Positions 3,366-22,944 of a stretch of 36,273 bases of DNA are shown here, one piece after another. Source of the stretch: Limisphaerales bacterium (GTDB taxonomy: Bacteria > Verrucomicrobiota > Verrucomicrobiia > Limisphaerales > UBA11358); the NCBI GenBank assembly GCA_003161635.1, contig PMOA01000103.1:17480-53752 (forward strand). Reading direction: 5' to 3'. Every line of letters starts with the position of its first letter. Position 1 is the stretch's first letter. The notes under the pieces are model-generated. The model was not told the DNA's origin and did not search any database. It saw only the letters and a program-made list of their open reading frames with translations. A program made the position numbers and the translations under genes.

Positions 3366-3436
3366 TCAACCCGCGGCCGCTTTCAAAATCGTCAAATGCC
3401 CAATTAATCGCGGCAGCGATTTTACTATATCCAAAG

Positions 3437-3469
3437 AGTAATAGCACAGCCACCTGCCATTTAGGACAC
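3437..3469 (-). promoter_or_regulatory. Shared promoter-like element, copy A (upstream of sigma operon)
   Basis: Read on the minus strand: GTGTCC (3469-3464), an 18-base spacer beginning TAAAT, then GCTATT (3445-3440) followed by ACTCT. It matches the consensus of the five other copies; this is the only one with an 18-base spacer. It lies 74 bases upstream of the sigma start codon and points towards it. Its promoter nature is inferred from the spacing, orientation and position. Confidence 0.7.
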
Positions 3470-3489
3470 CGAAAATTGACCGGCAGAAT

Positions 3490-4503
3490 CTAACTGGATT
3501 TTTCCACCAGCCAGATGTTGCGGAACCGAAGCGGCATTCCGTGCTCCTGCAACATGAGCGGGCCGGTGGGCGCTTCGCCCAGACGGCTCGCCGCGCCGTG
3601 CGGCAGATCGAGTTCTTGATTGTCGTAAATTTTCACGCCGTTGAGCAGCACAGTCGCGTGGGCGCTCGCAATTTTTTTGCCGTTGGCATCGAAGCGCGGC
3701 GCGCGGAAATCAATATCGAAGGTTTGCCAGTCGCGCGGCGGGAAACTGGGGCGTATGCGCGGCTCGACTTTATCTGTGCAGTTGTCGAAGCCACCGTTCG
3801 GAGTACCGTCGAGGCGACCATAGGTTTCGTTGATGTTCGCCTCGTAACGGTCTTGCAGAAAAACGCCGCTGTTGCTTGGCAGGCCGAGCGTGCGGAATTC
3901 GACATGGACGTGGCAGTCGCCGAATTTCTGGTGGGTGATGATGCAGTCGCTGCCCGGCACGACTTCGACCACGCCGCCGTTCACCAGTTTCCATTTCGCC
4001 GGGCCGTCTTCCGTCAGCCAGTCTTTTCCGGCCTTCTTTGCCCAAGCGTCGAGATTTTTTCCGTCAAAGAGAACGATTGCGCCTTTCGGAGGCTTTGCTC
4101 CTTGGGTTGGTGAAACGCGCTTGATGTGCTGCAAGTCAAAATTTTTATCGCCTTTGCTGCCGTTGAAATGCGAATTCTTGATCGTGCCAGTCCAGCCATC
4201 GCCGCTAAACGCAATTATGTTACTGGATGACACGCCTTGCAGAACGGCGACGACATTGCTTTCCGTGTCGAAAGCCGACAGCAGGTTCGCCTGATATTTC
4301 CCACCGGTCGCCGGGAAAACCTGGGCGACCACGCCGCCTTTGCCCTGCCAGTCGCCCATCAACGGATCGGCCTTGACCGGAATAAAATTGGCCGGCTTCT
4401 CGACTTTTCTGCCGTTGTTTTCCGGCGCGGTTTGCGGCGTGTCAGCGCCGAGCAGCGGGAACGCGATGATGCAGAGCAATGCGATGAGTTTTGTTTTTTT
4501 CAT
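3490..4503 (-). CDS. Exported DUF1080 protein (3-keto-disaccharide hydrolase family)
   Basis: The product has 337 residues with a signal peptide at about 1-20 (MKKTKLIALLCIIAFPLLGA). Residues about 45-130 form a small beta-rich region. The DUF1080 domain (Pfam PF06439, concanavalin-like fold) covers about 140-335, with the typical GAIVLFDGKNLDAW opening, SNSGVFLQDRYE core and GPLMLQEHGMPLRFRNIWL close. Family members are reported to hydrolyse 3-keto-disaccharides. The gene is last in the five-gene operon from 9026, 24 bases after the transporter gene. With two sugar-isomerase-like proteins and a transporter upstream, a role in periplasmic sugar or keto-glycoside breakdown is likely; the exact substrate is not visible. 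Confidence 0.9.
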   Translation of the reverse strand: MKKTKLIALLCIIAFPLLGADTPQTAPENNGRKVEKPANFIPVKADPLMGDWQGKGGVVAQVFPATGGKYQANLLSAFDTESNVVAVLQGVSSSNIIAFSGDGWTGTIKNSHFNGSKGDKNFDLQHIKRVSPTQGAKPPKGAIVLFDGKNLDAWAKKAGKDWLTEDGPAKWKLVNGGVVEVVPGSDCIITHQKFGDCHVHVEFRTLGLPSNSGVFLQDRYEANINETYGRLDGTPNGGFDNCTDKVEPRIRPSFPPRDWQTFDIDFRAPRFDANGKKIASAHATVLLNGVKIYDNQELDLPHGAASRLGEAPTGPLMLQEHGMPLRFRNIWLVEKSS

Positions 4504-4527
4504 AAAATGGTTTTGCAGATTTTGTTT

Positions 4528-5877
4528 TTATTCCGGCAGTGGTTTGTCTTTGGTTTCCGGCAGAAACGGCAGCACGAGAATTCCCAGCAGCAGGACGAGG
4601 CTCACCCACATTCCGGCGGTGCGGAAACCTTCGATGTTGCCGCCGAGACTTTTCGTGATTCTGCCGATGGTGAACGGCGCGGTCGCCGCGACGAGCCGCC
4701 CGAAGTTGTAACAAAAACTCGTGCCGGTGCTGCGCAGGCTCATCGGGAAAAGTTCCGGCAGATAAATGGCATAGACGCCAAACACGGAATACTGGCCGAA
4801 GCCCATGATTGGAAGCATCCAGTAAATCTGGTCAATCTCGCGGAGATAGCGGAAAACCAGTTGCGTGCAAAAAAATGAAAGCAGCAGCGCGAGAACGAAA
4901 GCCGGACGGCGGCCTTTGACTTGCGCGAATTTTGAGAGCGTCAACATTCCAAAAAATCCGCCGATGTTTTGCAGCAGCAGGCCGAGCGAACTCCAGTAGG
5001 CTTTTTTGCTCGCCAGCGCGGCGGGAGATAAATTGTCGCCGGCGAGATGGGTTTCAATAATTGAGCGGACAATTTTCGGATGAAAATTTCCGATGCCCCA
5101 AAGCCCGACGATTCCCGCGCTGCAAAGGATGAGTCCGAGCCAGGCGTGCTTCGACCACGTCGGATGTTTTAGCAAACTGAAGTAAGAGCCGAACTTCACG
5201 CCGGTTTTCGCGCCCTCGGCCCTGGCTTTCACCCATTTTTCAGGTTCTTTGAGCCGCGCCAAAATGAAAACGCAGAGAAATGCGGGGACGGCGCCGGCCA
5301 GAAACATCGCCTGCCATGCCTTGAGGCCGAAGGGCAGAAAATTTTTCGCGGCCAGAAGCCCGATGCCCATGCCGATCAGACCGGCGGTGATGTTGCCCCA
5401 ACTGGAAAGCGATTGAAGAAGTCCCAGCGCCGGCGCGCGACTTTTTTCCGGGACGGAATCAGCCACCAGCGCGACGGACAAACCAAAAACGCCACCCACG
5501 CCGAGGCCGGTGAAAAAAACGCACGCGCAGAAACCAAAATAACTCGTGGCAAAAGAACTCAAGCCGGTGCAAACGGAATAAATCAAAAGCGAAACGGTCA
5601 AAATGCGCGCGCGGCCAAAGCGGTCGCCCAGCGAACCAAAGATAAGACCGCCAATCGCCCAGCCGGTGAGAAAAAACGATGTGGTGTAAGCCGCGAGTTC
5701 AATCGCCTTGGATTTGTCGCCAAGCAAGTCTTCAACCGCGCCGTCGCGCGAGAGGTTGAAAATCTGCTGGTCAAGACAGTCGAAAAGCCACGCCAGAGAC
5801 GCGACGATAAAAACGCTCCAGTGATAGCGGTTGAGAGAACGCCACCACGGTTGCGGGTTGGAGGTTGTTGAACTCAA
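4528..5877 (-). CDS. MFS transporter, probably for a sugar or organic acid
   Basis: The product has 449 residues with about twelve hydrophobic segments. The inter-helix motif GSLGDRFGRARIL between helices 2 and 3 is the major facilitator signature, and a related PELFPMSLRSTGTSFCYNFGR motif sits near residues 375-395. No ATG suits the N-terminus. The start used here is a TTG at 5877 that overlaps the stop codon of the upstream thioredoxin-like gene, giving MSSTTSNPQPWWRSLNRYHW. Overlap with its upstream neighbour and a 24-base gap to the DUF1080 gene place it inside the operon. Uptake of a product released by the exported enzymes of the operon is a reasonable inference. The substrate is not predictable from the sequence. 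Confidence 0.87.
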   Translation of the reverse strand: MSSTTSNPQPWWRSLNRYHWSVFIVASLAWLFDCLDQQIFNLSRDGAVEDLLGDKSKAIELAAYTTSFFLTGWAIGGLIFGSLGDRFGRARILTVSLLIYSVCTGLSSFATSYFGFCACVFFTGLGVGGVFGLSVALVADSVPEKSRAPALGLLQSLSSWGNITAGLIGMGIGLLAAKNFLPFGLKAWQAMFLAGAVPAFLCVFILARLKEPEKWVKARAEGAKTGVKFGSYFSLLKHPTWSKHAWLGLILCSAGIVGLWGIGNFHPKIVRSIIETHLAGDNLSPAALASKKAYWSSLGLLLQNIGGFFGMLTLSKFAQVKGRRPAFVLALLLSFFCTQLVFRYLREIDQIYWMLPIMGFGQYSVFGVYAIYLPELFPMSLRSTGTSFCYNFGRLVAATAPFTIGRITKSLGGNIEGFRTAGMWVSLVLLLGILVLPFLPETKDKPLPE

Positions 5878-7088
5878 TTTGTTGTGGGGCTGTAATAAGC
5901 CCCGAGTTGATCCACAAGTTTTGCCGAAAGGCCGGCGGCATCAATTTGATTCGCGCGGCGATAAATTATTTTGCCGCCGGGCGCGACGACAATCGTGTAA
6001 GGCACAGGACCGGGCGATGCGGGATCAAGCGCCTGCATCAAGGCATCGAGGTTCGCGCCGGTGAAAAGATAGTTGTTCGTGCGCCGGCCTTCCATTTTGA
6101 GCGAACGCTGCACGCGGTTCGGGACGGTGGCGTGTTGCTTTTCCAAAAATTGTTTCACCTTCGCCTCGTCCTTCGGATCGTCCACGCTGATGGTGATGAC
6201 CTCGAAGTCGCGGTTGGCGAACCGGTGGGAAATGGAAACGAGTCCGGGAAATTCCTGAATGCACGGCACGCACCAGGTCGCCCAGACGTTGATGAGCCGC
6301 AATTTTTTTGTGTTGTTGCGAACCAATGCGGCGACGTTCGTGGCGTCAATTGATTCCAGCACCACCGGCGCGCCATACATCTTCTCGTCAATTTGAATCA
6401 GCTTGACTTTGTTCTCGATCCACTTGGTGGAGCAGCCAAATGGCTTGGTGACTTCCGTCGTTACCGATTTTCCTGCTAGCAATTCTTCAACCGCATTGCG
6501 CGCGTCGGTCGAGTGAACCGTGTTGGTTTCGGCAAAACGCGAATCGTCAAAGCGCCCCAGGTAACGCAGCTTGCGGTCGCGGTCGAAAAGAAAAATGTGC
6601 GGCGTGCAGAGGCAGCCGTAAGCCTTCGCCGTGGTTTGCGTGTCGCCGTCGTAAAGATAGGGAAACGTGAAGCCTTGTTCTTTCGCGTAGAGCTTCATGT
6701 CTTCGTAGCTGTCGCCGTATTTGGTGTAACCGAGTTCGCCGATGGCCATGGCGTCGGGATTGTTCGGACAGATCGCCACCACGGCCAGGCCGCGCGATTT
6801 CATTTCGGCGGCGAGCGGCAGCAGCCGTGTTTCCGTCGCGTGTGAATACGGACAATGGTCCGACAGGAAAGCGACCATCAACACCGGTGCGTCCTTGAAG
6901 TCGGCGAGCGTGTAAACTTTTCCGTCCACGCCTTTGAGGGAAAAATCCGGCGCGGTGTCGCCGATTTTCAAGTGGTGCGCGTCCGGCGGCAATTCGCTTT
7001 CGAGATCAACCCCTTTTTGGGCAAACAGCGGCGCGCAAACGAATGCGAGCAACGCCGTCAAAACCAGCCGCGGCAGTGAATGTTTCAT
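5874..7088 (-). CDS. Exported double-thioredoxin-fold protein (redoxin plus TlpA-like)
   Basis: The product has 404 residues when started at ATG 7088; a TTG five codons upstream (7103) is the alternative. A signal peptide covers about 1-24. The first domain, about 35-200, is an AhpC/TSA-like redoxin (IGDTAPDFSLKGVDG) with SDHCPYS in place of a CxxC centre and a second Cys pair near CLC, so a peroxiredoxin-like or degenerate centre is likely. The second domain, about 245-395, is TlpA-like with the classic WATWCVPC motif. Fusions of this kind act in periplasmic thiol redox. Here the gene is fourth-last in a sugar operon, 23 bases after a TIM-barrel gene and overlapping the MFS gene. Its link to sugar catabolism is unclear. 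Confidence 0.85.
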   Translation of the reverse strand: MKHSLPRLVLTALLAFVCAPLFAQKGVDLESELPPDAHHLKIGDTAPDFSLKGVDGKVYTLADFKDAPVLMVAFLSDHCPYSHATETRLLPLAAEMKSRGLAVVAICPNNPDAMAIGELGYTKYGDSYEDMKLYAKEQGFTFPYLYDGDTQTTAKAYGCLCTPHIFLFDRDRKLRYLGRFDDSRFAETNTVHSTDARNAVEELLAGKSVTTEVTKPFGCSTKWIENKVKLIQIDEKMYGAPVVLESIDATNVAALVRNNTKKLRLINVWATWCVPCIQEFPGLVSISHRFANRDFEVITISVDDPKDEAKVKQFLEKQHATVPNRVQRSLKMEGRRTNNYLFTGANLDALMQALDPASPGPVPYTIVVAPGGKIIYRRANQIDAAGLSAKLVDQLGAYYSPTTN

Positions 7089-7111
7089 GGGAACGGTTTT
7101 CAAGATTTATA

Positions 7112-7999
7112 TCAGGCTGCCATTCCCGCGAGCATGCCGCGCACATAGCCGACCGATTCGGCAAGTCCGGGCACCCGGTTGTCTTCCTTTTTTTCGTATT
7201 CAAACTCGGCCTGGCAGGAATACTTGACCTCCAATAGCGCGGCAATTATGGACCGGAAATCCAGCAAGCCATGACCGACGACCGCCGGTTGCGGATCCTT
7301 CATGCCACCACCGGTCGCCATCGTATCCCTCAGATGCACTTCATAAAGGCGTTCGCGGCACTGACGAATTGTCCGGGCCGGGTTTTCGCCGGCGCGGAAA
7401 CCATGGGCCACGTCGAGGCAAAGGCCGATGCGCCGGTCATACGGTTGCACGGCCTTCCAAACATCCATGCCGGTCGCGAGTTCTTGGGTCGGCCCGTGAT
7501 TGTGGATTGCCACCTTGAGATCGTATTCCTTGACCAGTTTGTCGACCAGCGGCAGGGAGTCGGTTTGCTTTAACCAGCCGCAAAACGTCGTGAGTCCGGC
7601 CGCGCGCACATTGTCGAGTGCTTTGCGAACGACGGCCTCGTCGTTCGGCAGTTCAATCATCCCGGTGCTGGTCACCATGATCCCGGCGTCGCTGAATTTC
7701 TGGACGACAGCTTTGCATTCGTCGGGCGTGCCGTCCGCCCACGGCGCATGGGACTTGTAAAGCGAAACCCCGGTGATCTCCACCTGTTTGAGCACCTCGA
7801 TCACGCCCTCGACTGGCAGTTTGGCGAGCGAATAGGACGCGACGCCGAGCTTCAATGCGGGCGCGCGACCTGCTTTCTTGACGGATGAATTGGTTTCCGC
7901 CGCCGTGACGGATGGAACTCCGATCAAAGGAAGGCTCAAGGCGGTGAGAGCCGCAACCTTCAAGGCTTCCCGACGGTTCAAAGTGTTTTTCCCTGTCAT
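7112..7999 (-). CDS. Tat-exported sugar phosphate isomerase/epimerase-like TIM barrel (PF01261)
   Basis: The product has 295 residues from ATG 7999. An upstream ATG at 8023 would overlap the previous gene and add eight residues. The leader carries a twin-arginine motif (NRREALKVAALTALSLPLIG) and the mature part begins near residue 35. The rest is a xylose-isomerase-like TIM barrel with likely metal ligands in the VAIHNHGPTQE, LCLDVAHGF, YEVHLRDT and CQAEFEYEKK segments. Family members include isomerases, epimerases and keto-glycoside-cleaving enzymes; the export signal argues against a sugar-phosphate substrate. It is the second gene of the operon and a distant paralog of the 8007-9026 gene. 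Confidence 0.87.
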   Translation of the reverse strand: MTGKNTLNRREALKVAALTALSLPLIGVPSVTAAETNSSVKKAGRAPALKLGVASYSLAKLPVEGVIEVLKQVEITGVSLYKSHAPWADGTPDECKAVVQKFSDAGIMVTSTGMIELPNDEAVVRKALDNVRAAGLTTFCGWLKQTDSLPLVDKLVKEYDLKVAIHNHGPTQELATGMDVWKAVQPYDRRIGLCLDVAHGFRAGENPARTIRQCRERLYEVHLRDTMATGGGMKDPQPAVVGHGLLDFRSIIAALLEVKYSCQAEFEYEKKEDNRVPGLAESVGYVRGMLAGMAA

Positions 8000-8006
8000 G
8001 CCGGGT

Positions 8007-9026
8007 TCACGCCGTTTGGGCAATGGCTTCCCGAAGTTCTTTAAGAAATTTCGGCACGACTACAAAGGGATCGTAGTTGCCGACACCCCCGCGTGGAGAC
8101 AATGTCTCAATGGGAAGATAGCCACGATAGCCGGATTTGCGGACGACGCTCAATAATCTTTTCAGGTCGGTGGGGCTGGCATCTTCTGCTTCCACGCCCA
8201 ACGGACTTTGTTTGATCTGCCAGTTCACCGCGTAGGGCGCGGCTTTTGCCATCTCCGCATACGGGTCGGCCGCCTTGAAATAACCGGTGTCCACGATGGC
8301 ACCGCACCACGGCGAATCAATGCGCTTGAGGAGGCTGATCAGGTTGTCGGCGGTCTTCAGAAAATCGCCGTGGTTTTGGACGCCGATGATCACGCCGAAT
8401 TTCGCGGCGTGGTCGGCGCACGCGCGGATGTCGGCGGCGATCCATTCCTCGACCTGGTCGCGCGTCGTGCCGTTTGACACGGTTTGCCACGTCTGCGCGC
8501 GCATCTGGGTATCGGCAAACACGCGCAGCACGGGCGCACCCAGTTTGCCTGCCACCTCGGCCCAGTTCTTGATGCGCTGCACGTCTTTCGCGCGTGCCGC
8601 CTTGTCTGCCACTGTGAAATTATTTCCCACGCCGGTGCCGCTGATGCCGAGACCCAGATCGAACGCCCTCCGCTTCAGTTCGAAGATATATTTGTCGGTG
8701 GGCACACCCGGACCATTTTTCTCATAGCCGGGGAAATAATACCCCGTGACATCAAAGCCGTCGAAGTTTTGCTTCGCGCAAAACTCGGCGAGGTCGAACA
8801 GGCTGATGCCTGCGCCGCGGCCCTGGAGCTGGTCGTTGAGCAGCTTGGCGAACGAGTAGGCATTGCAGGAAACCTTGAGCGCCGAGCCGCCCGCTCTTTT
8901 GATTGGTTCGATGGCCATGGCCGAAACGGTGCCCAATCCGATGCCTGCCGCGCACAGAGGCAAAACAGATGCGCTTTTGATAAAATCCCGGCGGTTAAAT
9001 TTGTTGTTCATAATTCTAGTGTCCAT
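8007..9026 (-). CDS. Tat-exported sugar phosphate isomerase/epimerase-like TIM barrel, first gene of operon
   Basis: The product has 339 residues from ATG 9026; ATG 9011 (MNNKFNRRDFIKS) is equally good and five residues shorter. NRRDFIKSASVLPLCAAGIG is a textbook twin-arginine leader. The mature part is a PF01261 TIM barrel with probable metal-binding segments IIGVQNHGDF, CGAIVDTGYF, NWQIKQS and YLPIETLSP. It heads the five-gene minus-strand operon ending at 3490: gaps are 7 and 23 bases, then an overlap, then 24 bases. The shared promoter-like element at 9228-9256 lies about 200 bases upstream, leaving an unusually long 5' leader. Paired with the next gene, it could isomerise or cleave an oxidised sugar in the periplasm. 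That role is inferred from context. Confidence 0.87.
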   Translation of the reverse strand: MDTRIMNNKFNRRDFIKSASVLPLCAAGIGLGTVSAMAIEPIKRAGGSALKVSCNAYSFAKLLNDQLQGRGAGISLFDLAEFCAKQNFDGFDVTGYYFPGYEKNGPGVPTDKYIFELKRRAFDLGLGISGTGVGNNFTVADKAARAKDVQRIKNWAEVAGKLGAPVLRVFADTQMRAQTWQTVSNGTTRDQVEEWIAADIRACADHAAKFGVIIGVQNHGDFLKTADNLISLLKRIDSPWCGAIVDTGYFKAADPYAEMAKAAPYAVNWQIKQSPLGVEAEDASPTDLKRLLSVVRKSGYRGYLPIETLSPRGGVGNYDPFVVVPKFLKELREAIAQTA

Positions 9027-9227
9027 GTTTTATTGCAAATCGGGTCAAAGCCACAATTCGGGCAGCCAACACATTCGCTGGCATAACCAGACTCAGCGCG
9101 CAGGCGCCAATGGCGATGAAACAAAGTTTTTTTATGGTATTTATTCTTCTTCCCGCATCATTTTGTTTTGGTTTTGCGACCGGCTGAAACAACCGATTTT
9201 CCGCAGAGCATACAGTCGTCATCTGGT

Positions 9228-9256
9228 AATAGCCACGCAAAGCTGAATTAGGACAG
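9228..9256 (-). promoter_or_regulatory. Shared promoter-like element, copy F (upstream of five-gene sugar operon)
   Basis: Read on the minus strand: CTGTCC (9256-9251), a 17-base spacer beginning TAATT, then GCTATT (9233-9228) followed by ACC. It is oriented towards the gene starting at 9026, about 200 bases away. Confidence 0.68.
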
Positions 9257-9396
9257 GCCAACGCACGCTTTCGGTCCGGGCGTCATCGGGCCTCTTGTCC
9301 AATCGCGTTGACCGGTCACGGACTCATTTCCGGCAAGCCATGAAAGCACTGGCCATGTTCTTTGATGTTCCGGCTGCCAAGATTTCTTCACTCGGG

Positions 9397-9425
9397 ATGT
9401 CCTAATTATCTACTCGACCGCTATT
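9397..9425 (+). promoter_or_regulatory. Shared promoter-like element, copy E (upstream of PEP-CTERM gene)
   Basis: ATGTCC (9397-9402), a 17-base spacer beginning TAATT, then GCTATT (9420-9425) followed by ACATT. It lies 94 bases before the ATG at 9520 on the same strand. Confidence 0.7.
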
Positions 9426-9519
9426 ACATTATAACCGAAGTCGCAAGTCGTGTTCAGTGTCGTGCGGCGCGGTTTTGAACTCAGAAACTAATTAAACTAA
9501 TTAAATCAGAAAGTGCCTT

Positions 9520-10281
9520 ATGAAGAAATACTTGATTCTCGCCTTGCTGGCGTTTGCGTCCTCCAACGCCTCCGCTGCGTCATTGTTCTCGGACAATTTC
9601 AACACCTATGCCGATGGCTCACTCACCACTGTGAGTGGAGGCATTTGGGCCAATCACAGCGGAACCGCGCTTCAGGTGGACGTTCTGTCCGGGGCAGTGA
9701 ATTTGACTGCAACTGAAAGCGAGGACGTCAATGCTCTGATCAGCGGAGGGCCCTATACGTCGGGCCTTTTGTATTACAGTCTTACCGTTAATTTCTCCGT
9801 CTTGCCAGCCGTTGGAGGTGGTTACTTCGCGCATTTCAAAGACGCGACGACCGGCGGTTTTCGCGCCCGGTTGTACGCCACCACGACTGGCGCGGCGCCC
9901 GGCTTTTATCGTTTGGGCATTAACAACGGGTCAAACCTTCCCATAACCGCAACGTATCCGAGCGACCTGTCCCTGGGCAGCTTCTATCAGGTGGTGGTGC
10001 GTTATGACGCTAGTTCACCCGCAAACGCATCGACGCTCTGGGTGGACCCCACGCTTGAAACCGACCCGAGCGTTACCGCCACCGACGGGGTAACCATGCT
10101 TCCAATTACGTCGTTTGCCTTGCGGCAGTCCACAATAGCCGCCGGCGGCATGGGCACGCTTACGGCGGACAACGTCCTGGTCGCCACGACCTTCGCAGAA
10201 GTCGTTCCCGAGCCTTCCTCGATCTTATTGGTGTCGCTCGGCGGATTGTTGGGTTTGTTCCGGCTGCGGCGTAAACACTGA
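9520..10281 (+). CDS. Exported PEP-CTERM protein
   Basis: The product has 253 residues. Residues 1-19 form a signal peptide (MKKYLILALLAFASSNASA). The middle is a beta-rich region of unknown family that looks lectin- or LamG-like in composition. The C-terminus carries a complete PEP-CTERM sorting signal at about 229-253: VPEPSSI, a hydrophobic helix (LLVSLGGLLGLF) and the basic tail RLRRKH. Such proteins are processed by an exosortase and end up in the outer envelope or extracellular matrix. No exosortase gene lies in the window. The gene stands alone, with a shared promoter-like element 94 bases upstream and another one downstream that serves the next gene. Confidence 0.9.
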   Translation: MKKYLILALLAFASSNASAASLFSDNFNTYADGSLTTVSGGIWANHSGTALQVDVLSGAVNLTATESEDVNALISGGPYTSGLLYYSLTVNFSVLPAVGGGYFAHFKDATTGGFRARLYATTTGAAPGFYRLGINNGSNLPITATYPSDLSLGSFYQVVVRYDASSPANASTLWVDPTLETDPSVTATDGVTMLPITSFALRQSTIAAGGMGTLTADNVLVATTFAEVVPEPSSILLVSLGGLLGLFRLRRKH

Positions 10282-10332
10282 TTGGGATACGCAGTTCATT
10301 TATCGTCGCCGAGCATGGGGAACTGCTCTTTG

Positions 10333-10361
10333 TTGTCCTAATTTAGTAACCGTGTGCTATT
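10333..10361 (+). promoter_or_regulatory. Shared promoter-like element, copy D (upstream of beta-strand-repeat gene)
   Basis: TTGTCC (10333-10338), a 17-base spacer beginning TAATT, then GCTATT (10356-10361). It lies 143 bases before the ATG at 10505, just past the end of the PEP-CTERM gene. Confidence 0.7.
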
Positions 10362-10443
10362 TTAACTTCAGAACGCAAAGTTATTGTTTGACTGAAACCA
10401 GAGCTCATTTTTGGTTTTGACATTGACATTTGACATAGAAGCG

Positions 10444-10488
10444 CTTTCGGAATAAAGTCAAAATAGAGGCATTTTCGGAATAAAATCA
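10444..10488 (+). repeat. Pair of 17-base direct repeats in the leader of the beta-strand-repeat gene
   Basis: CTTTCGGAATAAAGTCA (10444-10460) and TTTTCGGAATAAAATCA (10472-10488) differ at two positions and start 28 bases apart. They lie between promoter-like copy D and the start codon at 10505. The spacing is close to three helical turns, which would suit a protein-binding site; an RNA role in the leader is also possible. Function is inferred. Confidence 0.5.
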
Positions 10489-10504
10489 TCAACCTCAACA
10501 AAGC

Positions 10505-13500
10505 ATGAAAACTCTGACTCGCACTCTTCAAACCGCCGCCGCCGCCGCCGCCGTTGCCGCCATATTGGCAATGCCTCACCTCGCGTCCGCCGCGACAAAG
10601 AAATTTACAGTCAGCGTTTCGCCGACTACAACGAACGTGTTGAACGGTGTTGCCACTAATGTCACTGTCACTGTCACCAATACGTCCACCGCTGGCAGTT
10701 TTACTGGAGTCGTGACCAATGGTGTGTCTGTTTTTCCATCAGGTCAGGGTGTGACCGCCAGTTTTTCGAGTTCAAGTTTAATCGTAATCAGTAATAGTCC
10801 AGACGTTCCCGTTAATGGTAGCGCGTCTTTAACGCTGTATATTTCAGCAACGGCTGGGGCCGTGCAAGACTCGGTTTACACGGTGACCGTGACGGGAACG
10901 AATACCGCCGCCACCGGCAATGTTCCACCAGGAGTTGCCAAGGCCACATATACTTTTATCGTAGGGACTGTGCCGACCATGGTTTGGAGTCCTGGCGGGA
11001 TAGATACGAATTGGTCAACGGCTGGTAACTGGTCCCCATCCGGACCACCAGATTCAAAGAAAGACGTCAAGTTTTTTGACCTCGGCAGTGGAGGAACCAA
11101 TGTTGTTAACACCAGTTTGACCATCGGCTCGCTGACTTACGGCCATACGAATAATTGGCACACCACGCTCATTCCTTCGGGAGTGACATTGACGGTTGGT
11201 GGAGACGTCAACGACCTCAACGGTTTGGTCACAGGCACGGGCACAGATCCCGGGAATGGCCAACTGACAAGGGCTGCGATTACGGGCGCGGGCGGCGCGC
11301 TGGCCGTCACCAACAATGGTGCCAATGTTTATGTCAGTCAGTCTCACCCCGTTACTTCCGGTGAATCTTTTTCTCAAGCCACTTTGGACCTTTCGGGATT
11401 GGGCAAATTTACAGCCACCATTTCCAGATTATTGGTCGGTGTTGACCTGACCATCAAAGGTGCCAGCGGCATTTTAAACTTGGCGCGGACGAACGTAATA
11501 ACCGCGACGGCCGGATCAGCCGCGCCGCAAATTGATGTCGGTGACAACACCCAGCCCCAAGGATCGGCGGCTATCCCGAGTATTCTGTTTCTTGGCCAGA
11601 CGAACGCTTTCTTTGCTGATTCCATTGCGGTGGGTCGCGGCAAAACCGATGACACTGGAAGCTCGATGCTATTCAACAGCAGCTTTGCCAGTCCGACAGC
11701 TTATTTCCGAGGCACGAATGGCAACACCAGCCGGGTGGGGACATGGTCAATCGGTGATGCCTATGGTTCCAAGTATACTTCATTCGATAATACTGTTGGC
11801 ACCTGTGATTTCAGCTTGGGAACGGTCAATGCGCTGGTGAACACGATGTATGTGGGCAAGGGTGCGGATGCCACGATTACTCCCGGTGCCAGCATTAAAG
11901 GACTGGGCACGCTGATGTTTGGTGCCGGAACCATTGACGTCAACATTTTGCAAGTTGGGGTTTCAGCCACTGCCACCGGCACGGGAACGGTGAACGTCAA
12001 CGGCGGTTCGCTTCTGGTGAACACTTCTTTGGAGTTGGCTAATGGCAGCGGCTCTTCCGGCACGCTCAACATTTCCGGCGGAATGGTGACGGCCAACACC
12101 GGCATCACCGCTGGTGGTGGATCGGCCACAATCAACCTGACCGGCGGCACGCTCAATGTGACCAACGTCACCGCTACAATCGGGACGACGGCAAATCCGC
12201 TCAACACGTTCAGTGCTGCCAACGCGACTATCAATCTGGCCGTTCGAAGCACCACGCCCAGTGTCGCAACCGTCAATCTTGCGGCTGGCGGCGCTGCCAA
12301 TACGATCAACATCAGATCCGTGCCTTTGCTCACAGGTTTTCCAACTCAATTTCCCATCATCCAATACGGTTTGATCGGTGGCAGTGCCAGCGGCGATTTG
12401 ACGACATTCACTCTCGGCACATTGCCTTCCGCGAGTCCGGCTTACGGCGCTTACATTTCCAACAACGTGGCGAACAATTCAATTGATATTGTTTTCACCA
12501 ATGGCCCATTTGTTCCGGCGCTCACTTGGGACGGCAAGACCAATGGCAATTGGGACGTAGCGACGACGGCGAACTGGCGGCCGGCGGCCGGACCGGACAC
12601 AACCTACGGTCAGGGAAATATTGTGACGTTTGACGACACGCTGACGGGAACGACCAACGTGAATTTGACGACGGCCTTGACTCCCGGCGCTCTCACCGTC
12701 AACAACACGCTGTCCAATTATGTTTTCAGCGGCAGCGGCAGCATCAGCGGCAGCGTCACGCTGGTCAAATCAGGCTCCGGCACGTTGACTCTGGCTGAAA
12801 CCGGCGGCGATAATTTCAGCGGCGGCATCATCGTCAACAACGGCACGGTGATTTTGGACGACGCCAACAGCGCGATTTCCGGCGGCACGACAATCAACGG
12901 CGGAACAATTCAAGTTGGAAACAACCACGTGAACGGAACTTTGCCTTCAGGCGGCGTCGCTGACACTGGCGCGCTGATTTTCAATCGCGCCGACAACATC
13001 ATCGTGACCAACGTGATTTCCGGCGCGGGCACGCTGACGCAAAGCGGCGCCAATGTCGTGACCTTGAGCGGCAACAACAGCGGGTTCACCGGCACGGCGA
13101 CCGTGGCGCAAGGCACGCTGCAAGTCGGCAGCACGAACGCCCTCGGTTCGACAACCAGCGTCACCGTGAGCAACGCGGCAACGTTTGACGTGAACGGTTA
13201 TGCTTTGTTCGGCAATGGAAATGTCAACTTGGTCGTCACCGTTTCCGGCGCGGGCGTCGGCGGCACCGGCGCGATTGTCAACAACAGCACCAACAGCCCG
13301 ACAAAAGTTTTGCACATGGTGACTATGGCTGCGGATGCGACCTTCGGCGGCAACAACGATTGGGACATCCGCAATTCCAGCGGCAACACCGCCACCGCGG
13401 ACGCAGCGTTGACCGGCGCTTTCAATTTGACGAAAGTCGGAACCAACTCAGTTTCGCTCCGGGGCGTCACGGTGGATACCGGCTTGGGCGACATCAATGT

Positions 13501-14629: not shown

Positions 14630-14639
14630 GCTGACATAA

Positions 14640-15546
14640 CAATTAACAACTGCGACCAACACACCGGCGGGCAATTACGTCCTGACTATCACTGGAATTT
14701 TCGGAACACTCACGACCAACGTGACCGTCACGTTGAAAGTCACCGACTTCTCCATCGTCGCGACGCCGGTTTCACAAACTGTGGCGGCGGGCGCGACCAA
14801 CAATTTCACGGTGACGGCCAGCAACAACTTCAGTGCGAGCGTCACCTTAACTGCCAGCGGTTTGCCCTCGGGCGCGCGCGCTTTTCAACCCGGGTTCAAT
14901 CACGGGGTCGGGGACATCGGTGCTGACCATAACCATTTCGGGTTCAACTCCGGCGGGAACGAACACCGTCACCATCAACGGAATCAGCGGGCAGACGCAC
15001 AGCACAAATGTCACGCTCATCGTGACCGGCAGCGGCGACGTCACGAACACGCCGCCAGTGTTGTCGCCGATCTCGAACCAGTTCGTCAATGCCGGCGTCA
15101 CGCTGACGATCACCAACGTCGCGACCGATTCCGACACGCCAGCGCAAACGCTGACATTCAATCTGCTAACTGCGCCGACCGGCGCGGTATTGAATGCGAA
15201 CAGCGGGATTTTCACATGGCGTCCCGCCGCCGCGCAGGCGAACACGACCAACCTCACAACTCTGAAAGTGACCGACAGCGGCACGCCGCCGTTGAGCGCG
15301 ACGCAAAGTTTCAACATCATAGTGAATCCGCTGGCGAGACCCGTGCTTGGACTCGCCCGTCTGACCAACGGCTTCTGGAAATTGAATATCACCGGGCCGA
15401 CCGGGCCGGACTATTCCATCCAAGGCGCGAGCAACTTCGTGAACTGGACGGCGCTGACCGTGAGCAATTCTGCGACGTTGCCATTCACCTGGATCGATAG
15501 TAATAATGTGCCGGCTTGGTTCTACCGTGTGTTGCTTGGGCCATGA
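14640..15546 (+). pseudogene. Frameshifted, 5'-truncated fragment of an Ig-domain secreted protein
   Basis: Directly after the stop at 14629, coding-like sequence continues. One frame (14640 to about 14880) reads ATNTPAGNYVLTITGIFG and ends in SNNFSASVTLTASGLPSGA. The sense then passes to another frame (about 14880-15546), reading FNPGSITGSGTSVLTITISG and ending YRVLLGP before a stop at 15546. Joining the two restores a standard repeated Ig-like domain, so a single-base loss near 14875-14885 (a GC-repeat run) broke the frame. The second half holds a putative Ig/cadherin-like domain (PPVLSPISNQFVNAG) and the same kind of C-terminal module as the preceding protein (SNFVNWT ... FYRV). There is no start codon or signal peptide, so this is a truncated paralog left by recombination or deletion. 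Confidence 0.72.
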
Positions 15547-15586
15547 AAAATTCGCCGGGCGTTCCTGGCAAATTCGTCAGTCCAAC

Positions 15587-17164: not shown

Positions 17165-17170
17165 ATTTTC

Positions 17171-18160
17171 ATGATGACTCAAAACCAAAAAATTCGCTGG
17201 GGTGTCCTTGGCTACGCGCGTATCGCGCGGGAGAATCTCATTCCGGCGATGCAGCGCTCGTCCAATTCGGAGTTCTATGCAATCGCGTCGCGCGAAGAAT
17301 CCAAACTGGCCGAGTGCCGCGCGCGTTTCAACGTGCCGAAAACTTATCGCGGTTACGACGAACTCCTGCGCGACCCGGAAGTGGATGCCGTCTATATTCC
17401 GCTCCCAAATTCGCTGCATCGCGAGTGGGTGGTCAAAGCCGCCGCAAAAGGGAAACACGTCCTTTGCGAGAAACCCATCGCGCTGAACGCCGCCGAATGT
17501 CGCGAGATGATCGCCGCTTGCGCCGCGAACAAAGTCCAATTGATGGAAGCGTTCATGTATCGCTACACCGACCGCACGCGCAAAGTGCTGGATGTCTTGA
17601 AAAGTGGTGTCCTGGGAGAAATCAAATTTGTCGGATCGACTTTTCGGTTTCTGTTGGCCAATCCCGCTTCCATCAAACTCAAACCCGAACTCGGCGGTGG
17701 CGCGCTTTACGACGTGGGTTGCTATCCGGTCAATTTCGTCGGGATGGTGGCGGATGAAATCGCGGGCCAGGCAGGCAGTTCGTTGCCGGAATCCATTTCC
17801 GCTGAAAATGTGCGGACAAACGGCGTTGACATGATTTTTTCCGCGCTCATGAAATATCCTTCGGGACTGATTGCGTCGCTAAACTGCGGATTCAACGCAC
17901 AAAAGCGCATATTTTCGGAAATCATCGGAGCGAAAGGCGCGCTCGAAATTCCTGACACATTTTTCGACAACGCAGGCGTGCTGACATTGACAGTCGGCGA
18001 GGAACGTCGCGAAATTTCAGTTGAACAGAGCGACCGCTACCGATTTGAAGTCGAAGATTTCGCTGACGCCGTTTTAAGCAATCGTGCGCCGCATTTCAGT
18101 CTCGTCGAAACCCAACGCAACATGGAAGTCATGGACAGACTTTTTGCAGCGAGCAAATGA
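17171..18160 (+). CDS. Gfo/Idh/MocA-family NAD(P)-dependent oxidoreductase
   Basis: The product has 329 residues; ATG 17171 is followed directly by a second ATG. The N-terminal Rossmann fold opens with IRWGVLGYARIARENLIPAM, where the usual G-x-G-x-x-A/G reads GYARIA. The conserved catalytic EKP motif is in GKHVLCEKPIALNA, near residue 98. The C-terminal alpha/beta substrate domain covers about 125-325, with GGGALYDVGCYPVNF holding the Asp/Cys/Tyr segment seen in xylose dehydrogenase and dihydrodiol dehydrogenase-like members. No export signal is present, so the protein is cytoplasmic. It lies 6 bases after the synthase-like gene, probably in one transcript, and converges on the GH9 gene with only 7 bases between them. 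Confidence 0.92.
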   Translation: MMTQNQKIRWGVLGYARIARENLIPAMQRSSNSEFYAIASREESKLAECRARFNVPKTYRGYDELLRDPEVDAVYIPLPNSLHREWVVKAAAKGKHVLCEKPIALNAAECREMIAACAANKVQLMEAFMYRYTDRTRKVLDVLKSGVLGEIKFVGSTFRFLLANPASIKLKPELGGGALYDVGCYPVNFVGMVADEIAGQAGSSLPESISAENVRTNGVDMIFSALMKYPSGLIASLNCGFNAQKRIFSEIIGAKGALEIPDTFFDNAGVLTLTVGEERREISVEQSDRYRFEVEDFADAVLSNRAPHFSLVETQRNMEVMDRLFAASK

Positions 18161-18167
18161 AGTCTGA

Positions 18168-20078
18168 TTATTGGTTGGCCAGGCGCGCGAAAATCAACAC
18201 GGTCGGGATGGTGTAGTCATCTGCCGGTTCGACCGTCGTCCAACTGCTCACGTCGTCTGTGTATTGAACACCGTTTCCGGAAAACGGCGCAAAAGGATTT
18301 TTGCCGCCGGGCCACGGAGTCGCGCGCGCGCCGTCCGGCACGTCGCCGCCTTTGGAAGATTTTCCGCGTGCCGGGCCATCTACTGTCGCGCCCAATACAA
18401 TCGGCGGAGTTCCATCGAGTGAACCGGCGAGATTCGCGACTTGATGCTGCATGTGAAATGGAAAAACTTTTCCCGCGCCGACGATGAATGAAGTTCCCCA
18501 CGCGTTTGCACCGAGAACAAAATCCAATTGCCGCTGCGCAAAGTCCGCATAAGTCGTCGTGTGAGTCAGGTCGTCATATAAATCCGCTTCCACGACCAAG
18601 CCCAGAACGTGCGGCACTGGATCGCCGCCCGCATAGCGGAAGCCGAGACCGAACGGGTCTTTGGCGGCGCGTTTCGCGGCGCTGTCGAGCCGCCGCTTGA
18701 GGCCGGCAAGAAGATCCGCGCGGGAAACTTCGAGGCCGGTGGCCGCACCGGATTTTTCCAGCGCGCGGCACAATTCGTAGTGCGCCAGACCGCTCACGTC
18801 GTAGAGGTTGAGCGAATCCACGCTGCCGGAATCCAGATAAGCCCGCGCCCAGTGCGCGGCCTGTTGCTTATAATTTGTCGCGTCGGAATGCGGCAGACCG
18901 GCGGGCGCTTTGCCATCGGCGAGCGCAAGATGCAATTCGGTCGCGCCCCATTCCATGTCGTCACGCCACTCATCTTCGGGATAAAATGTTCGCGGATAAG
19001 TCGTGGTCAATTCAATGACGTTGGTCGTCGCGGCCAGGTCAAAAATATTTTCAGCGGCGAGCAAGAGGCGTTTTGCATAATCGGGATCGCTGGTTTTGAA
19101 AACCTGATAGCCCAACGCAAACGCGGCGGCCAGCCGTCCGGCGAGATTTGGACTGATTTGCGCGCCCGCCGCGCCAGCCGGAAACACGGGGCGATATTTG
19201 ATGAAGTATTGCGGGTCGCCTGGTTGGACATTTAATTTGTCGTCCGCCTCCGGCAGCCGCCACACGTCGTGGTCGCCAGTGACACTTTGATTGCCGTCAC
19301 CGATGCCGACTTGGATGTAAAGCGTCTTCGTTTCGCCGTTCCACATTTTCAACAGCCAGTCTAATCCGTAACGGCCTTCAGCAGTGAAATCAGCCGGACT
19401 GCCGTGTCCCATCTGTGCCGGATAATCTCTTGCGCCTTGCAACATCATCGCGGTCACATAACTGGCGGTCTGAACAAATTTCAGATAATCGCCCGCGTCA
19501 AACCAGCCGCCGGAAACGTCCACCGGCCCGCCAGTTTTTTCCAGGCCGCCTTGCATTCCGTTTTTTCCAAAGGCCGGAACTTTATAGACAAACGCCTGTT
19601 TGTCCGTGAGGTGCGAAGGCTTGCGGTTGATTACTGCGGATGAAACATCCGCGCCGTCGCGCTGGGCTTGGAAGAAAAAAAGTAAATTGCGGAGCAACGG
19701 CGCATACACGTCGCTGCCCGTGCCGATTTGAAATGAAGGCGAAACCGCCGGAACAACTCCGTAAACTTTGATGGAATAAATCCCCGCCTTCTTCACGGAA
19801 GAAAAATCCAGCAGATAAATATTTGTATAAACTGTGCTCCATGAACCGATTTTATTTCCGACCGAAGCTGTGAGCGCAAACGGGCCGTCGGAACTGACGA
19901 CTTTGAAGATGGCGTTGCTTTCAGAGTCGGTCGCCATCAAAAGCGCCTGCTTCGTGTCATTCACGAGAAAGCCGGCTTGGTTGACACGGATTTGCGCATT
20001 TATTTCCGCTGCGTTGAGTGTTGAAAAACTAGTTGAGGCGGTTGTGAGCAACGAAAACAATTGCGTGAAACGTCTCAT
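18168..20078 (-). CDS. Exported glycoside hydrolase family 9 enzyme (endoglucanase-like)
   Basis: The product has 636 residues from ATG 20078 (a TTG just before it is the longer choice). A signal peptide covers about 1-23. An N-terminal Ig-like CelD_N domain follows at about 28-118 (IRVNQAGFLVNDTKQALLM). The GH9 (alpha/alpha)6 catalytic domain covers about 120-632. The catalytic base region GGWFDAGDYLKF is at about 190-201. The conserved C-terminal block includes FVLGANAWGTSFIVGAG and HMQHQV, and SSWTTVEPADDYTIP holds the likely acid Glu. GH9 enzymes cleave beta-1,4-glucans and related glycans. The gene lies 34 bases after the TIM-barrel gene and is probably last in the operon starting at 22150. 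The exact substrate is not predictable. Confidence 0.93.
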   Translation of the reverse strand: MRRFTQLFSLLTTASTSFSTLNAAEINAQIRVNQAGFLVNDTKQALLMATDSESNAIFKVVSSDGPFALTASVGNKIGSWSTVYTNIYLLDFSSVKKAGIYSIKVYGVVPAVSPSFQIGTGSDVYAPLLRNLLFFFQAQRDGADVSSAVINRKPSHLTDKQAFVYKVPAFGKNGMQGGLEKTGGPVDVSGGWFDAGDYLKFVQTASYVTAMMLQGARDYPAQMGHGSPADFTAEGRYGLDWLLKMWNGETKTLYIQVGIGDGNQSVTGDHDVWRLPEADDKLNVQPGDPQYFIKYRPVFPAGAAGAQISPNLAGRLAAAFALGYQVFKTSDPDYAKRLLLAAENIFDLAATTNVIELTTTYPRTFYPEDEWRDDMEWGATELHLALADGKAPAGLPHSDATNYKQQAAHWARAYLDSGSVDSLNLYDVSGLAHYELCRALEKSGAATGLEVSRADLLAGLKRRLDSAAKRAAKDPFGLGFRYAGGDPVPHVLGLVVEADLYDDLTHTTTYADFAQRQLDFVLGANAWGTSFIVGAGKVFPFHMQHQVANLAGSLDGTPPIVLGATVDGPARGKSSKGGDVPDGARATPWPGGKNPFAPFSGNGVQYTDDVSSWTTVEPADDYTIPTVLIFARLANQ

Positions 20079-20112
20079 CAATTGATTCCAGACCGGTTGT
20101 TTTATCCGGAGT

Positions 20113-20994
20113 TCAAGGCTTCAATTCTTTGACGAGCTGCTCCGTCCGGCGGCCATATTCGATAAAATTCCTTTGCATCGCCGCGTCGTCGGTGGACTGA
20201 AGTTTTGCGTCGTGAAAAACTGAAACCATGTGCGGCTCGATGGAAATACCCGCGTCGTAACCGCGAGCAAAGGCGTCCTTCAAAATATCGCGCACGCGGC
20301 CCTGTCCTTCGCCCGGCCAGTTGTAGTCCGCGTCGTCTTTCGCGGCGTTCCAGGTCGCGTCTTTGATGTGGATGTGCGCGACATGATCACGAACGTGTGT
20401 CCAGAATTCCCAAGGATCTTGCTTCGGCCACGGCTTGGGTCTGGAACGGTCGGGATTGAAAATGGGATTTGCCGGATCGAAAAGCCAGTTGAGTCCGGGA
20501 CATTTTCCCAAAAGCTCAAGCGCGTGCTGCCAGCTCATGCCGCCGTGGTTCATGCAGTTTTCGTGAACCGGCTGGATGCCCGCGTCGAGGAACATTTTTG
20601 TCACGTCCTGCACGCGGCGGAAAACCTCGGCGGGAATTTTGTGCGCGTCGTCGTCCGGCTTGAAACTCATGATGCGGACATATTTTGTGCCGAGCCGCTG
20701 CATCCGCGGAATGGCGCGTTTGATTTCCGACAAAGTAATTTCAAACGGATCGCCAACTTTTTTTGCCCAGTTCATTACCGTCGAGCCAAAGCAATAAACC
20801 CCGATGCCCGCCGCCTCCAACTTCCTGACGGCGATGTCGAACGCCGCGTCTGGAATTTCGTGGAAATTCGCCTTTGGAAATCCGGGCACTTCAACCCCAC
20901 GCATCTCGATGAATTTCCAGCCGAGTTCTTTCGTGGCGTGAATCTGGCCGTCAATCGCGTTGGCAGCCTCGTCACCAATACCCATCAGTTTCAT
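20113..20994 (-). CDS. Cytoplasmic sugar phosphate isomerase/epimerase-like TIM barrel (PF01261)
   Basis: The product has 293 residues from ATG 20994, starting MKLMGIGDEAANAIDGQIHA. A longer frame reaching 21036 would overlap the upstream gene, and the chosen start lies 4 bases past that gene's stop codon. The fold is a xylose-isomerase-like TIM barrel. Probable metal and substrate residues lie in QPVHENCMNHGG, NWLFDPANP, AHIHIKDATW and GISIEPHM. There is no signal peptide, in contrast to the two exported paralogs at 7112-9026. It lies between an oxidoreductase and a GH9 gene on the same strand, which fits intracellular conversion of an oxidised sugar derived from the GH9 substrate. That role is inference. 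Confidence 0.9.
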   Translation of the reverse strand: MKLMGIGDEAANAIDGQIHATKELGWKFIEMRGVEVPGFPKANFHEIPDAAFDIAVRKLEAAGIGVYCFGSTVMNWAKKVGDPFEITLSEIKRAIPRMQRLGTKYVRIMSFKPDDDAHKIPAEVFRRVQDVTKMFLDAGIQPVHENCMNHGGMSWQHALELLGKCPGLNWLFDPANPIFNPDRSRPKPWPKQDPWEFWTHVRDHVAHIHIKDATWNAAKDDADYNWPGEGQGRVRDILKDAFARGYDAGISIEPHMVSVFHDAKLQSTDDAAMQRNFIEYGRRTEQLVKELKP

Positions 20995-20998
20995 AAAA

Positions 20999-22150
20999 TC
21001 ATTTTCGGAACGAACTTGCGAAATCGTCCGTCGCAACCTTCACGACTTTTTTCTCAATTTTCGATTCCGCGATCAACTGGTTCAATTTCTTTTCCCACGC
21101 CGCGCCGTCCATCGGCAATTCCATCGTTTGGCCGAGCAATGATGAATATATCATCACGTTGGCCAGCTCCACCGAGTTGATGCCTTCTTCACCCGGCGCA
21201 ATGAGCGGTGCACCGTCGAGAATCGCGTTTACGAAATTCTGCACCATCGTCGCGTGCGGCGCAGCGGCGTTTTCAAAAGCAATTTCTTCCGGCCGTGAAC
21301 CGGGTTTTACAAAACCCTGTTTTGCGGTTTTGCTGAATTCAAGCATGTCCGCCTCGTTGCGCGTGAGCGTGAGCTTGTTGTTTTCGAGGACCAGTGTGCC
21401 GCGCGTGCCGACAATTTCAAAACGATTTGTGCCCGGCGTTTCGCCGGTCGAACTGATGAACGTGCCGGTCGCGCCATTCGCCCATTCCAGGTAAACCGTC
21501 ACGTTGTCTTCGACTTCAATCTGGTGAAACCGTCCGATCTGGCAAAAGCCGCGCACCCGCGCGGGCATTCCGCAAAGCCATTGCAGCGTGTCGAGATTGT
21601 GAAGGCATTGGTTGAGCAACACGCCACCGCCTTCGCCCTTCCACGTCGCGCGCCAGCCGCTGCTCGCGTAATAAGCCTCCGTGCGAAACCAGTCGGTGTT
21701 GATCCAGTTGACGCGCACGATTTCGCCCAAATCTTCCTTGATCAGCTTCTGAATTTTCAAATAACGCGGCTCGGTGCGCAATTGAAACATGCCGGCGAAA
21801 ATAATTTTCGGATGTTTTTTATGCGCGGCAATGAGTCTTTCCGCGTCGGCTTTGTGCGAGGAAATCGGTTTTTCAACCATCGCATGAACGCCGTTTTCAA
21901 GCGCGGCAATGCCGAGCGTCGTGTGCTGAAAATGCGGCGTGGCGATGATGACCGCGTCCACGGCGCCGGATTGGATGAGCTGCCCGCCGTCGCCGAAAAT
22001 CTTGAGCGGCTTGAATTGTTCGAGCGGCGCGACGTTGGCGTCGCACACCGCCACAAGTTCACAGCGGTTGATTTTTCTATTGAGCAGATATTCGGCGTGA
22101 TACTTGCCGATATTGCCCATGCCGATGATGCCTAGCCGAATTTTATCCAT
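20999..22150 (-). CDS. Gfo/Idh/MocA-family oxidoreductase, first gene of a GH9 operon
   Basis: The product has 383 residues. The Rossmann fold opens with IRLGIIGMGNIGKYHAEYLL and includes the nucleotide-binding CDAN segment. EKPISSHKADAERLIAAH holds the catalytic EKP, near residue 93. The C-terminal domain has the GGGVLLNQCLHNLDTLQWLCG motif, with a His and an Asp placed as in inositol dehydrogenase-like members, and a DNVTVYLEWANGATGTF strand. It is cytoplasmic. Four bases separate its stop from the TIM-barrel start codon. The shared promoter-like element at 22191-22222 lies about 43 bases upstream of its ATG. It would oxidise or reduce a sugar or cyclitol whose identity is not visible. Confidence 0.92.
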   Translation of the reverse strand: MDKIRLGIIGMGNIGKYHAEYLLNRKINRCELVAVCDANVAPLEQFKPLKIFGDGGQLIQSGAVDAVIIATPHFQHTTLGIAALENGVHAMVEKPISSHKADAERLIAAHKKHPKIIFAGMFQLRTEPRYLKIQKLIKEDLGEIVRVNWINTDWFRTEAYYASSGWRATWKGEGGGVLLNQCLHNLDTLQWLCGMPARVRGFCQIGRFHQIEVEDNVTVYLEWANGATGTFISSTGETPGTNRFEIVGTRGTLVLENNKLTLTRNEADMLEFSKTAKQGFVKPGSRPEEIAFENAAAPHATMVQNFVNAILDGAPLIAPGEEGINSVELANVMIYSSLLGQTMELPMDGAAWEKKLNQLIAESKIEKKVVKVATDDFASSFRK

Positions 22151-22190
22151 TGAAAGAAATTTATTGGAAGAATGTTTTGTGCTTCGTCAG

Positions 22191-22222
22191 AGTAATAGCT
22201 CAGCGGTCGCAATTTGGGACAG
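22191..22222 (-). promoter_or_regulatory. Shared promoter-like element, copy B (upstream of oxidoreductase/GH9 operon)
   Basis: Read on the minus strand: CTGTCC (22222-22217), a 17-base spacer beginning CAAAT, then GCTATT (22199-22194) followed by ACT. It lies 43 bases before the ATG at 22150, the shortest leader among the six copies. Confidence 0.72.
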
Positions 22223-22251
22223 AAAGCTTTCATAAGACCCATTCGACTTTT

Positions 22252-22280
22252 TTGTCCCAATTTAGAGGCCATGTGCTATT
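22252..22280 (+). promoter_or_regulatory. Shared promoter-like element, copy C (upstream of small exported protein)
   Basis: TTGTCC (22252-22257), a 17-base spacer beginning CAATT, then GCTATT (22275-22280). It lies 176 bases before the ATG at 22457 on the same strand and is divergent to copy B. Confidence 0.7.
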
Positions 22281-22924: not shown

Positions 22925-22944
22925 TTTGAATTCAATCGTCTTTC

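Follow-up and report, generated by a model that had tools for sequence, protein, structure and literature searches.

Verrucomicrobiota and Planctomycetota are rich in extracytoplasmic function (ECF) sigma factors, and little is known about how polysaccharide use is regulated in these phyla. Autoregulated ECF modules pair a sigma factor with an adjacent anti-sigma-type membrane protein and carry a promoter ahead of the sigma factor's own operon; PMC8103513 gives AAC and CGT boxes for such promoters, and has later definitions of the ECF family retain only the sigma2/sigma4 make-up. In Clostridium thermocellum, the alternative sigma factor of the SigI-RsgI system controls its own operon together with saccharolytic genes, and the anti-sigma factor encoded by the overlapping partner gene is a membrane protein with an exported carbohydrate-binding part (PMC4711584, PMC6056542). 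In glycan loci of Bacteroides, an ECF sigma factor and a two-domain membrane partner are encoded beside polysaccharide genes, and the signal passes through a SusC-like porin (PMC3878776). Here we describe a locus of comparable content in a Limisphaerales bacterium. It lies within a 36,273-base stretch of contig PMOA01000103.1 (hereafter the window), where an element made of two boxes, TGTCCYAAWT and GCTATT, stands ahead of six genes or operons, one of which encodes an ECF sigma factor and a membrane protein with FecR and LamG domains (FecR-LamG). We think it very probable, judging from sequence conservation, that the element is a promoter read by this sigma factor, which would thereby control its own operon and five neighbouring units.

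The pattern TGTCCYAAWT-N12/13-GCTATT has exactly six matches on the two strands of the window (sites A to F, Table 1), and none in 100 dinucleotide-preserving shuffles of it. Because this pattern was derived from the six copies themselves, it is the independent tests in relatives, given below, that carry weight. As a preliminary description of this DNA had claimed, TGTCC and GCTATT are separated by 17 nucleotides (nt), or 18 in site A, and the start-to-start distance is 22 nt. Each of the six sites faces the gene that follows it. GCTATT is separated from the start codon by 74 nt for A, 201 for F, 94 for E, 143 for D, 43 for B and 176 for C, which extends the range first given (43 to 200) by a single base. 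Mechanically called open reading frames (ORFs) overlap sites A (2941-3453), F (8863-9246 and 9016-9261) and C (22262-22591); the only one of these scanned with Pfam, 2941-3453, gave no match, and we take all of them to be spurious and the six sites to be intergenic, as originally described. A trained matrix found no further site scoring at least 15 in the window or in the preceding 18.5 kb of the contig. Consensus sigma-70 promoters number 12 in the window, against 8.9 in shuffles, and none falls at the six sites.

The preliminary description had named a scan of the whole genome as a check on the element, and in the 4.3-Mb host genome (G000) we found that matches to its exact form are confined to this locus rather than spread through the genome. 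The 28-bp form TGTCCYAAWT-N12-GCTATT has five exact matches, all in the window (A is excluded by its longer spacer), none with one mismatch and three with two. Two of these three (L010, L011) lie within ORFs, while the third (L009) is almost entirely intergenic but faces a gene on the opposite strand. With up to three mismatches there are 60 matches in all, against 52 for a reversed control. The looser pattern TGTCC-N16-19-GCTATT has 10 matches, six of which are the window sites, and its reversed control has three. A candidate seventh site, which we do not count, lies at G000:C16:9764-9790 (-) in locus L008; its spacer is one base shorter, its score is 18.3, and it stands 56 nt ahead of a gene for a 218-aa protein with an export signal read by eye. 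Over 165 residues this protein has 45% identity to one whose gene lies near sigma in L057. The regulon would be local, covering some 24 kb, and that distant site may be its one outlying member.

We next turned to relatives of the sigma factor. Searching genome contigs with the sigma protein, we obtained 42 loci, in which TGTCC-N16-19-GCTATT has 12 matches and the reversed pattern none. We left out L096, where just the end of the gene is present, and added four loci from whole genomes (G122, G160, G066 and G217), which makes 45 loci besides the window. In a rank test that used a matrix built from the six window sites only and covered both strands, the best match of the whole locus fell in the 1.6 kb upstream of the sigma gene, on the sense strand, in 34 of the 45 loci, and one of the best three did so in 40. 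On the antisense strand of the same region the best match was found in one of 45 loci (one of the best three in eight), downstream of the sigma gene in none of 44, and with 50 column-shuffled matrices in 2.5 loci on average and seven at most. After training, 43 sites, picked as the best of each locus, yield the descriptive consensus TGTC[C36/T7]NAA and [G]CTAT[T]. The upstream box had been put at ten bases in the preliminary description; that length holds in this window only, the core across relatives being TGTC[C/t]NAA with [G]CTAT[T].

Where another gene stands between the site and the sigma gene, the site precedes it, which indicates that the position of the site is tied to the beginning of the sigma operon and not simply to sigma itself. 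In 13 loci the start of the site lies 34-125 nt before the frame taken as the intervening gene (start codons were assigned mechanically). Most Opitutales loci have their site 770-800 nt upstream of sigma, with a gene in the gap. In marine Opitutales the sigma operon opens with a gene for a protein of 223-225 aa with no Pfam match in the two scanned (L069 9296-9967, L077 9309-9986), and similar frames are present in L072, L083 and L090. Chthoniobacter-like loci have in this place a small exported protein with EF-hand matches in the three scanned (L055 645-959, L059 6603-6962, L061 649-1029), for which a link to calcium is possible. The site of the planctomycete locus L058 (7681, score 14.3) is farther upstream, 54 nt before a DUF1559 gene that lies two genes ahead of sigma; in the sigma gene string, L058 7763-8950 and L057 8231-9100 encode DUF1559 proteins whose N-terminus is of the prepilin type. 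The long gap between site and sigma in Opitutales had raised the idea of a structured RNA, which was rejected: Rfam, run on seven loci, gave only a tRNA elsewhere, and the gap holds a gene. When the A promoter is aligned to L057, both boxes form conserved islands amid diverged DNA. The B/C region is less informative, being 85% identical to G389 across the whole alignment. For F, the distance from site to gene is 201 against 67 nt, yet the site persists; its two copies were not matched up by the aligner.

The element also tracks the sigma orthogroup across genomes. We sampled 387 genomes from the phylum and scored at most the eight best candidates in each; 18 genomes contain a sigma match at E 1e-30 or better, and in six of these (G000, G122, G160, G118, G066 and G217) the identity is at least 58%. 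TGTCCYAA-N14-GCTATT occurs in eight genomes, namely five of these six and three of the 381 others (Fisher p = 4.7e-9; the host genome, from which the motif was taken, is among the five). All three matches in sigma-negative genomes lie within reading frames, and the other genome of the host genus (G295) has neither motif nor sigma. The form TGTCCHAA-N15-CTATT gave 21 matches in 20 sigma-positive genomes, 12 of which contain it, against one for its control. In the loci of 20 distant sigma paralogues (33-40% identity) there was one stray weak match (L122), and in those of 20 weaker ECF matches of the host genome there was likewise one (L038), each oriented away from the sigma gene.

The genes that follow the site were examined in 11 sequences. 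The sigma gene is preceded by a site, directly or as the second gene, in G122, G066, G217, L055, L057, L059 and L063. Homologues of the xylose-isomerase-like TIM barrel protein with a twin-arginine (Tat) signal follow a site in G122, G160, L057 and L058, an AhpC/thioredoxin protein does so in G122, and an alginate lyase gene has a site of its own in G122 and G160. The small exported protein and the Gfo/Idh/MocA oxidoreductase are preceded by sites in G389, in the same back-to-back pair as B and C; such pairs were seen in five genomes (window, G122, G160, L058 and G389). A PEP-CTERM protein follows a site in L058, as does a heparinase-II/III-like protein, and further targets are a ThuA/cytochrome protein (G066) and PSCyt1/PSCyt2 proteins (G400 and G401; Pfam was run on the former). 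None of the ORFs that follow sites in these 11 sequences is a counterpart of the beta-strand-repeat target, and no search aimed at beta-strand-repeat proteins was made. The common theme of the targets in relatives is sugar and polysaccharide breakdown.

The preliminary description had proposed a common promoter of a regulon, a proposal now strongly backed by the conserved position before the sigma operon, the co-occurrence with sigma, the absence from paralogues and the recurring targets. It had listed the sigma/FecR operon only as one target; this part stands, and the evidence makes the sigma factor the likely reader of the element as well. The protein contains sigma regions 2 and 4 only, scores 169.9 bits against TIGR02989 (cut-off 124.55), which places it in that subfamily, and is the sole protein above this cut-off in the host genome, which holds 20 weaker ECF-family matches. 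We propose that TGTCCYAA would serve as the -35 box and GCTATT as the -10 box, and that the sigma factor would transcribe its own operon from A and the five neighbouring units from F, E, D, B and C. FecR-LamG would most likely hold it inactive until a signal at the exported FecR/LamG part, most plausibly a polysaccharide or its product, frees it. The freed sigma factor would then amplify itself, and genes for uptake, breakdown and the cell surface would be switched on together.

The proposed role of FecR-LamG draws on its gene pairing and its FecR identity, which make it probably the anti-sigma factor. Its start overlaps the stop codon of sigma (ATGA), and a hydrophobic segment can be read by eye. 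A similar protein follows sigma in 44 of 46 loci, the window included; the remaining two loci (L068, L083) end at that point, and four of the 44 partner proteins are cut short. By BLAST only the first half aligns in most Opitutales. Pfam finds both FecR and Laminin_G_3 in all seven relatives scanned, four of them Opitutales-type; the FecR domain (PF04773) is marginal in the window (24.1 bits, cut-off 24), below its cut-off in L057 and above it in the other six. That the signal is a glycan is suggested by the LamG family and by the target genes. An alternative that leaves the regulon and its sites as proposed, and concerns the signal only, is that the signal arrives through a TonB-dependent receptor touching FecR, in the manner of FecA-FecR-FecI or the Bacteroides SusC systems, or that LamG senses something other than a glycan. 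We put this at somewhat below an even chance. The FecR-type partner would suit it, as would a TonB-dependent receptor gene directly upstream of the sigma orthologue of G160 (L133 17696-19939, a locus without a site before sigma); set against these are the Pfam results for 27 of the window ORFs, which include neither a TonB receptor nor a SusC/D protein, and the retention of LamG on the FecR protein in every relative scanned.

Two other alternatives concern the element itself. It could be an operator for a conventional DNA-binding activator, with sigma merely one of the targets: six co-directed sites before different operons would look much the same, and the upstream box is long. We consider this improbable, as no other DNA-binding regulator was recognised among the scanned window ORFs, the element is not palindromic and always faces a gene in the window, its near-fixed 22-nt spacing fits a promoter, and it follows the sigma orthogroup across genomes. 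Alternatively, the sites could be promoters of another sigma factor, either the housekeeping one or a second ECF factor, and the local sigma could have other targets. The host genome does have those 20 further weak ECF-family matches; however, the flanks searched lack the site save for the one weak, wrongly oriented match, no exact site occurs elsewhere in the genome, which is not expected for a housekeeping sigma, and in relatives the site tracks this sigma gene, all of which makes the idea more improbable still. The possibility that a dispersed repeat or random matching accounts for the six copies is practically negligible, even with B and C merely 31 bp apart, given the empty shuffles, the lack of any further genome copy at zero or one mismatch, and the lack of evident common sequence outside the boxes.

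Several observations nevertheless weigh against a promoter read by the local sigma factor. The boxes are not the classical ECF AAC (-35) and CGT (-10). In 11 of the 45 loci the best match of the window-only matrix is not the upstream site; in L076 and G160 the 1.6 kb upstream of sigma contains no good site, and the site of G217 is weak (16.5). Many of the 45 loci are close kin, so that the counts are not independent, and a single tight Opitutales-type group accounts for 29 of the 46 sigma factors. Pooling the matches at a set score gave no decisive result (77 matches, against a shuffled mean of 40 and maximum of 94), because this counts weak matches anywhere. Eight of the 20 sigma-positive genomes have no match to TGTCCHAA-N15-CTATT, and six of its 21 matches (L146, L154, L155, L156, L158 and L160) overlap simple ORF calls and are probably not promoters. 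The absence of sigma from a genome is not absolute, since only the best eight candidates were scored. The link to PEP-CTERM genes raised in the preliminary description holds in part: the target recurs in one other genome (L058), but only one of the nine PEP-CTERM homologues listed has a convincing upstream site. Among 10 homologues of the Tat TIM barrel protein at 50% identity or less, none has one.

The set of sigma, FecR-LamG and promoter is kept together in Verrucomicrobiota, in a genome labelled Lentisphaerae and in the planctomycete Bythopirellula. The 46 sigma factors form one clade (100/99) with Bythopirellula inside it, which suggests transfer; many inner branches of the tree are weak and its outgroup rows are long. 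Locus L065, titled Lentisphaerae, and G118 of the phylum sample are apparently one and the same contig, and we do not count the former as a further phylum. Tentatively, and leaning against it on balance, we raise the possibility that sigma, a FecR-LamG protein acting as glycan receptor and anti-sigma factor, a private promoter, and sugar-degrading and surface genes form a portable regulon that travels as a whole, across phyla too. If so, extracellular polysaccharides would be sensed by one protein, free of SusCD.

The features of the window are collected in Table 1. Domain searches agree with the kinds of downstream gene first listed: a sigma/FecR operon, a Tat-exported sugar operon, a PEP-CTERM protein, a beta-strand-repeat protein, an oxidoreductase/GH9 operon and a small exported protein.

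Table 1. Predicted promoter sites and genes of the window, by unit (positions in the window).
Feature	Position	Strand	Description
Site A	3440-3468	-	Predicted promoter of the operon for sigma and FecR-LamG; TGTCCTAAATGGCAGGTGGCTGTGCTATT; one base more in the spacer
ECF sigma factor, operon A	2823-3365	-	Sigma70_r2 and Sigma70_r4_2; TIGR02989; 180 aa; proposed reader of all six sites
FecR-LamG membrane protein, operon A	1198-2826	-	Pfam FecR and Laminin_G_3; proposed anti-sigma factor/sensor
Glyoxalase/dioxygenase-superfamily protein	240-1187	-	Probable third gene of operon A, after a 10-nt gap; similar protein follows FecR-LamG in L057
Site F	9228-9255	-	Predicted promoter of the operon from Tat TIM barrel to 3-keto-disaccharide hydrolase
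Xylose-isomerase-like TIM barrel, first gene of operon F	8007-9026	-	PF01261; twin-arginine signal by eye
TIM barrel, operon F	7112-8023	-	Pfam
AhpC/TSA-thioredoxin, operon F	5874-7103	-	Pfam
MFS transporter, operon F	4528-5877	-	Pfam
3-keto-disaccharide hydrolase, operon F	3490-4503	-	Pfam (PF06439, of which we take DUF1080 to be the older name)
Site E	9398-9425	+	Predicted promoter of the PEP-CTERM protein gene; counterpart in Bythopirellula (L058)
PEP-CTERM exported protein	9520-10281	+	PF07589, TIGR02595
Site D	10334-10361	+	Predicted promoter of the beta-strand-repeat protein gene
Large beta-strand-repeat protein	10505-14629	+	PATR / autotrns_rpt; export by N-terminus, by eye
Site B	22194-22221	-	Predicted promoter of operon B, from Gfo/Idh/MocA to GH9; forms a back-to-back pair with C
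Gfo/Idh/MocA oxidoreductase, operon B (18168-22150)	20999-22150	-	Pfam
TIM barrel, operon B	20113-21036	-	Pfam
GH9, operon B	18168-20081	-	Pfam
Site C	22253-22280	+	Predicted promoter of the small exported protein - alginate lyase pair; same site in G389
Small exported protein, operon C (22457-24217)	22457-22924	+	No Pfam match; export signal by eye
Alginate-lyase-family protein, operon C	22982-24217	+	PF05426

Two further ORFs of the window deserve mention. The one after the beta-strand-repeat gene (14721-15500) has a surface-protein-like start followed by odd low-complexity sequence, as if the frame were broken, and no Pfam match. A single protein encoded at 33298-34947 fuses LpxC and FabA-like domains.

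At this locus the sigma orthogroup, its predicted promoter, a probable anti-sigma sensor and the targets can be read together, and in genomes with an orthologue of the sigma factor the promoter offers a way to search for regulon members. Bythopirellula polymerisocia Pla144, which has more sites, and Chthoniobacter flavus Ellin428 are both in culture and are possible test strains. The joining of a lectin-like domain to FecR gives a clear, testable sensor hypothesis. We recognised no description of this motif or regulon in the literature searched; the motif may already have been predicted in the ECF classification literature.

How, then, does the locus compare with known systems? Like the autoregulated ECF modules, here of the TIGR02989 Rhodopirellula/Verrucomicrobium subfamily, it combines a sigma2+sigma4 protein with an adjacent anti-sigma-type membrane protein, and it has a predicted promoter of -35/-10 layout ahead of its own operon; unlike the modules described in PMC8103513, its boxes are TGTCCYAA and GCTATT. 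With FecI-FecR-FecA it shares the (marginal) FecR domain of the partner, whereas no TonB-dependent receptor was found among the scanned window ORFs. The Bacteroides systems (PMC3878776) resemble it in that polysaccharide genes lie next to those for an ECF sigma and a two-domain membrane partner, but here no SusC/D protein was found among the same ORFs, and FecR carries its own LamG. The RpoN / PrsK-PrsR system likewise has a PEP-CTERM surface gene under an alternative sigma factor, which there is sigma54 with -24/-12 boxes (PMC9850573), rather than an ECF sigma. SigI-RsgI would be the nearest working analogue, though the partner here is not of the RsgI family. The two share an overlapping gene pair, a sigma factor that controls (here, by prediction) its own operon and saccharolytic genes, and a partner with an exported part, which here is LamG, with ligand binding only putative. 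They differ in the class of sigma factor, in the -10 box (GCTATT here, against CGWA/CGAA in PMC4711584 and PMC6056542) and in the partner, in which Pfam gives only FecR and Laminin_G_3 and no RsgI N-terminal domain. An ECF module with a regulon is thus a known kind of system, and what would be new here is the combination of a predicted promoter other than AAC/CGT with a FecR partner that bears a lectin-like domain.

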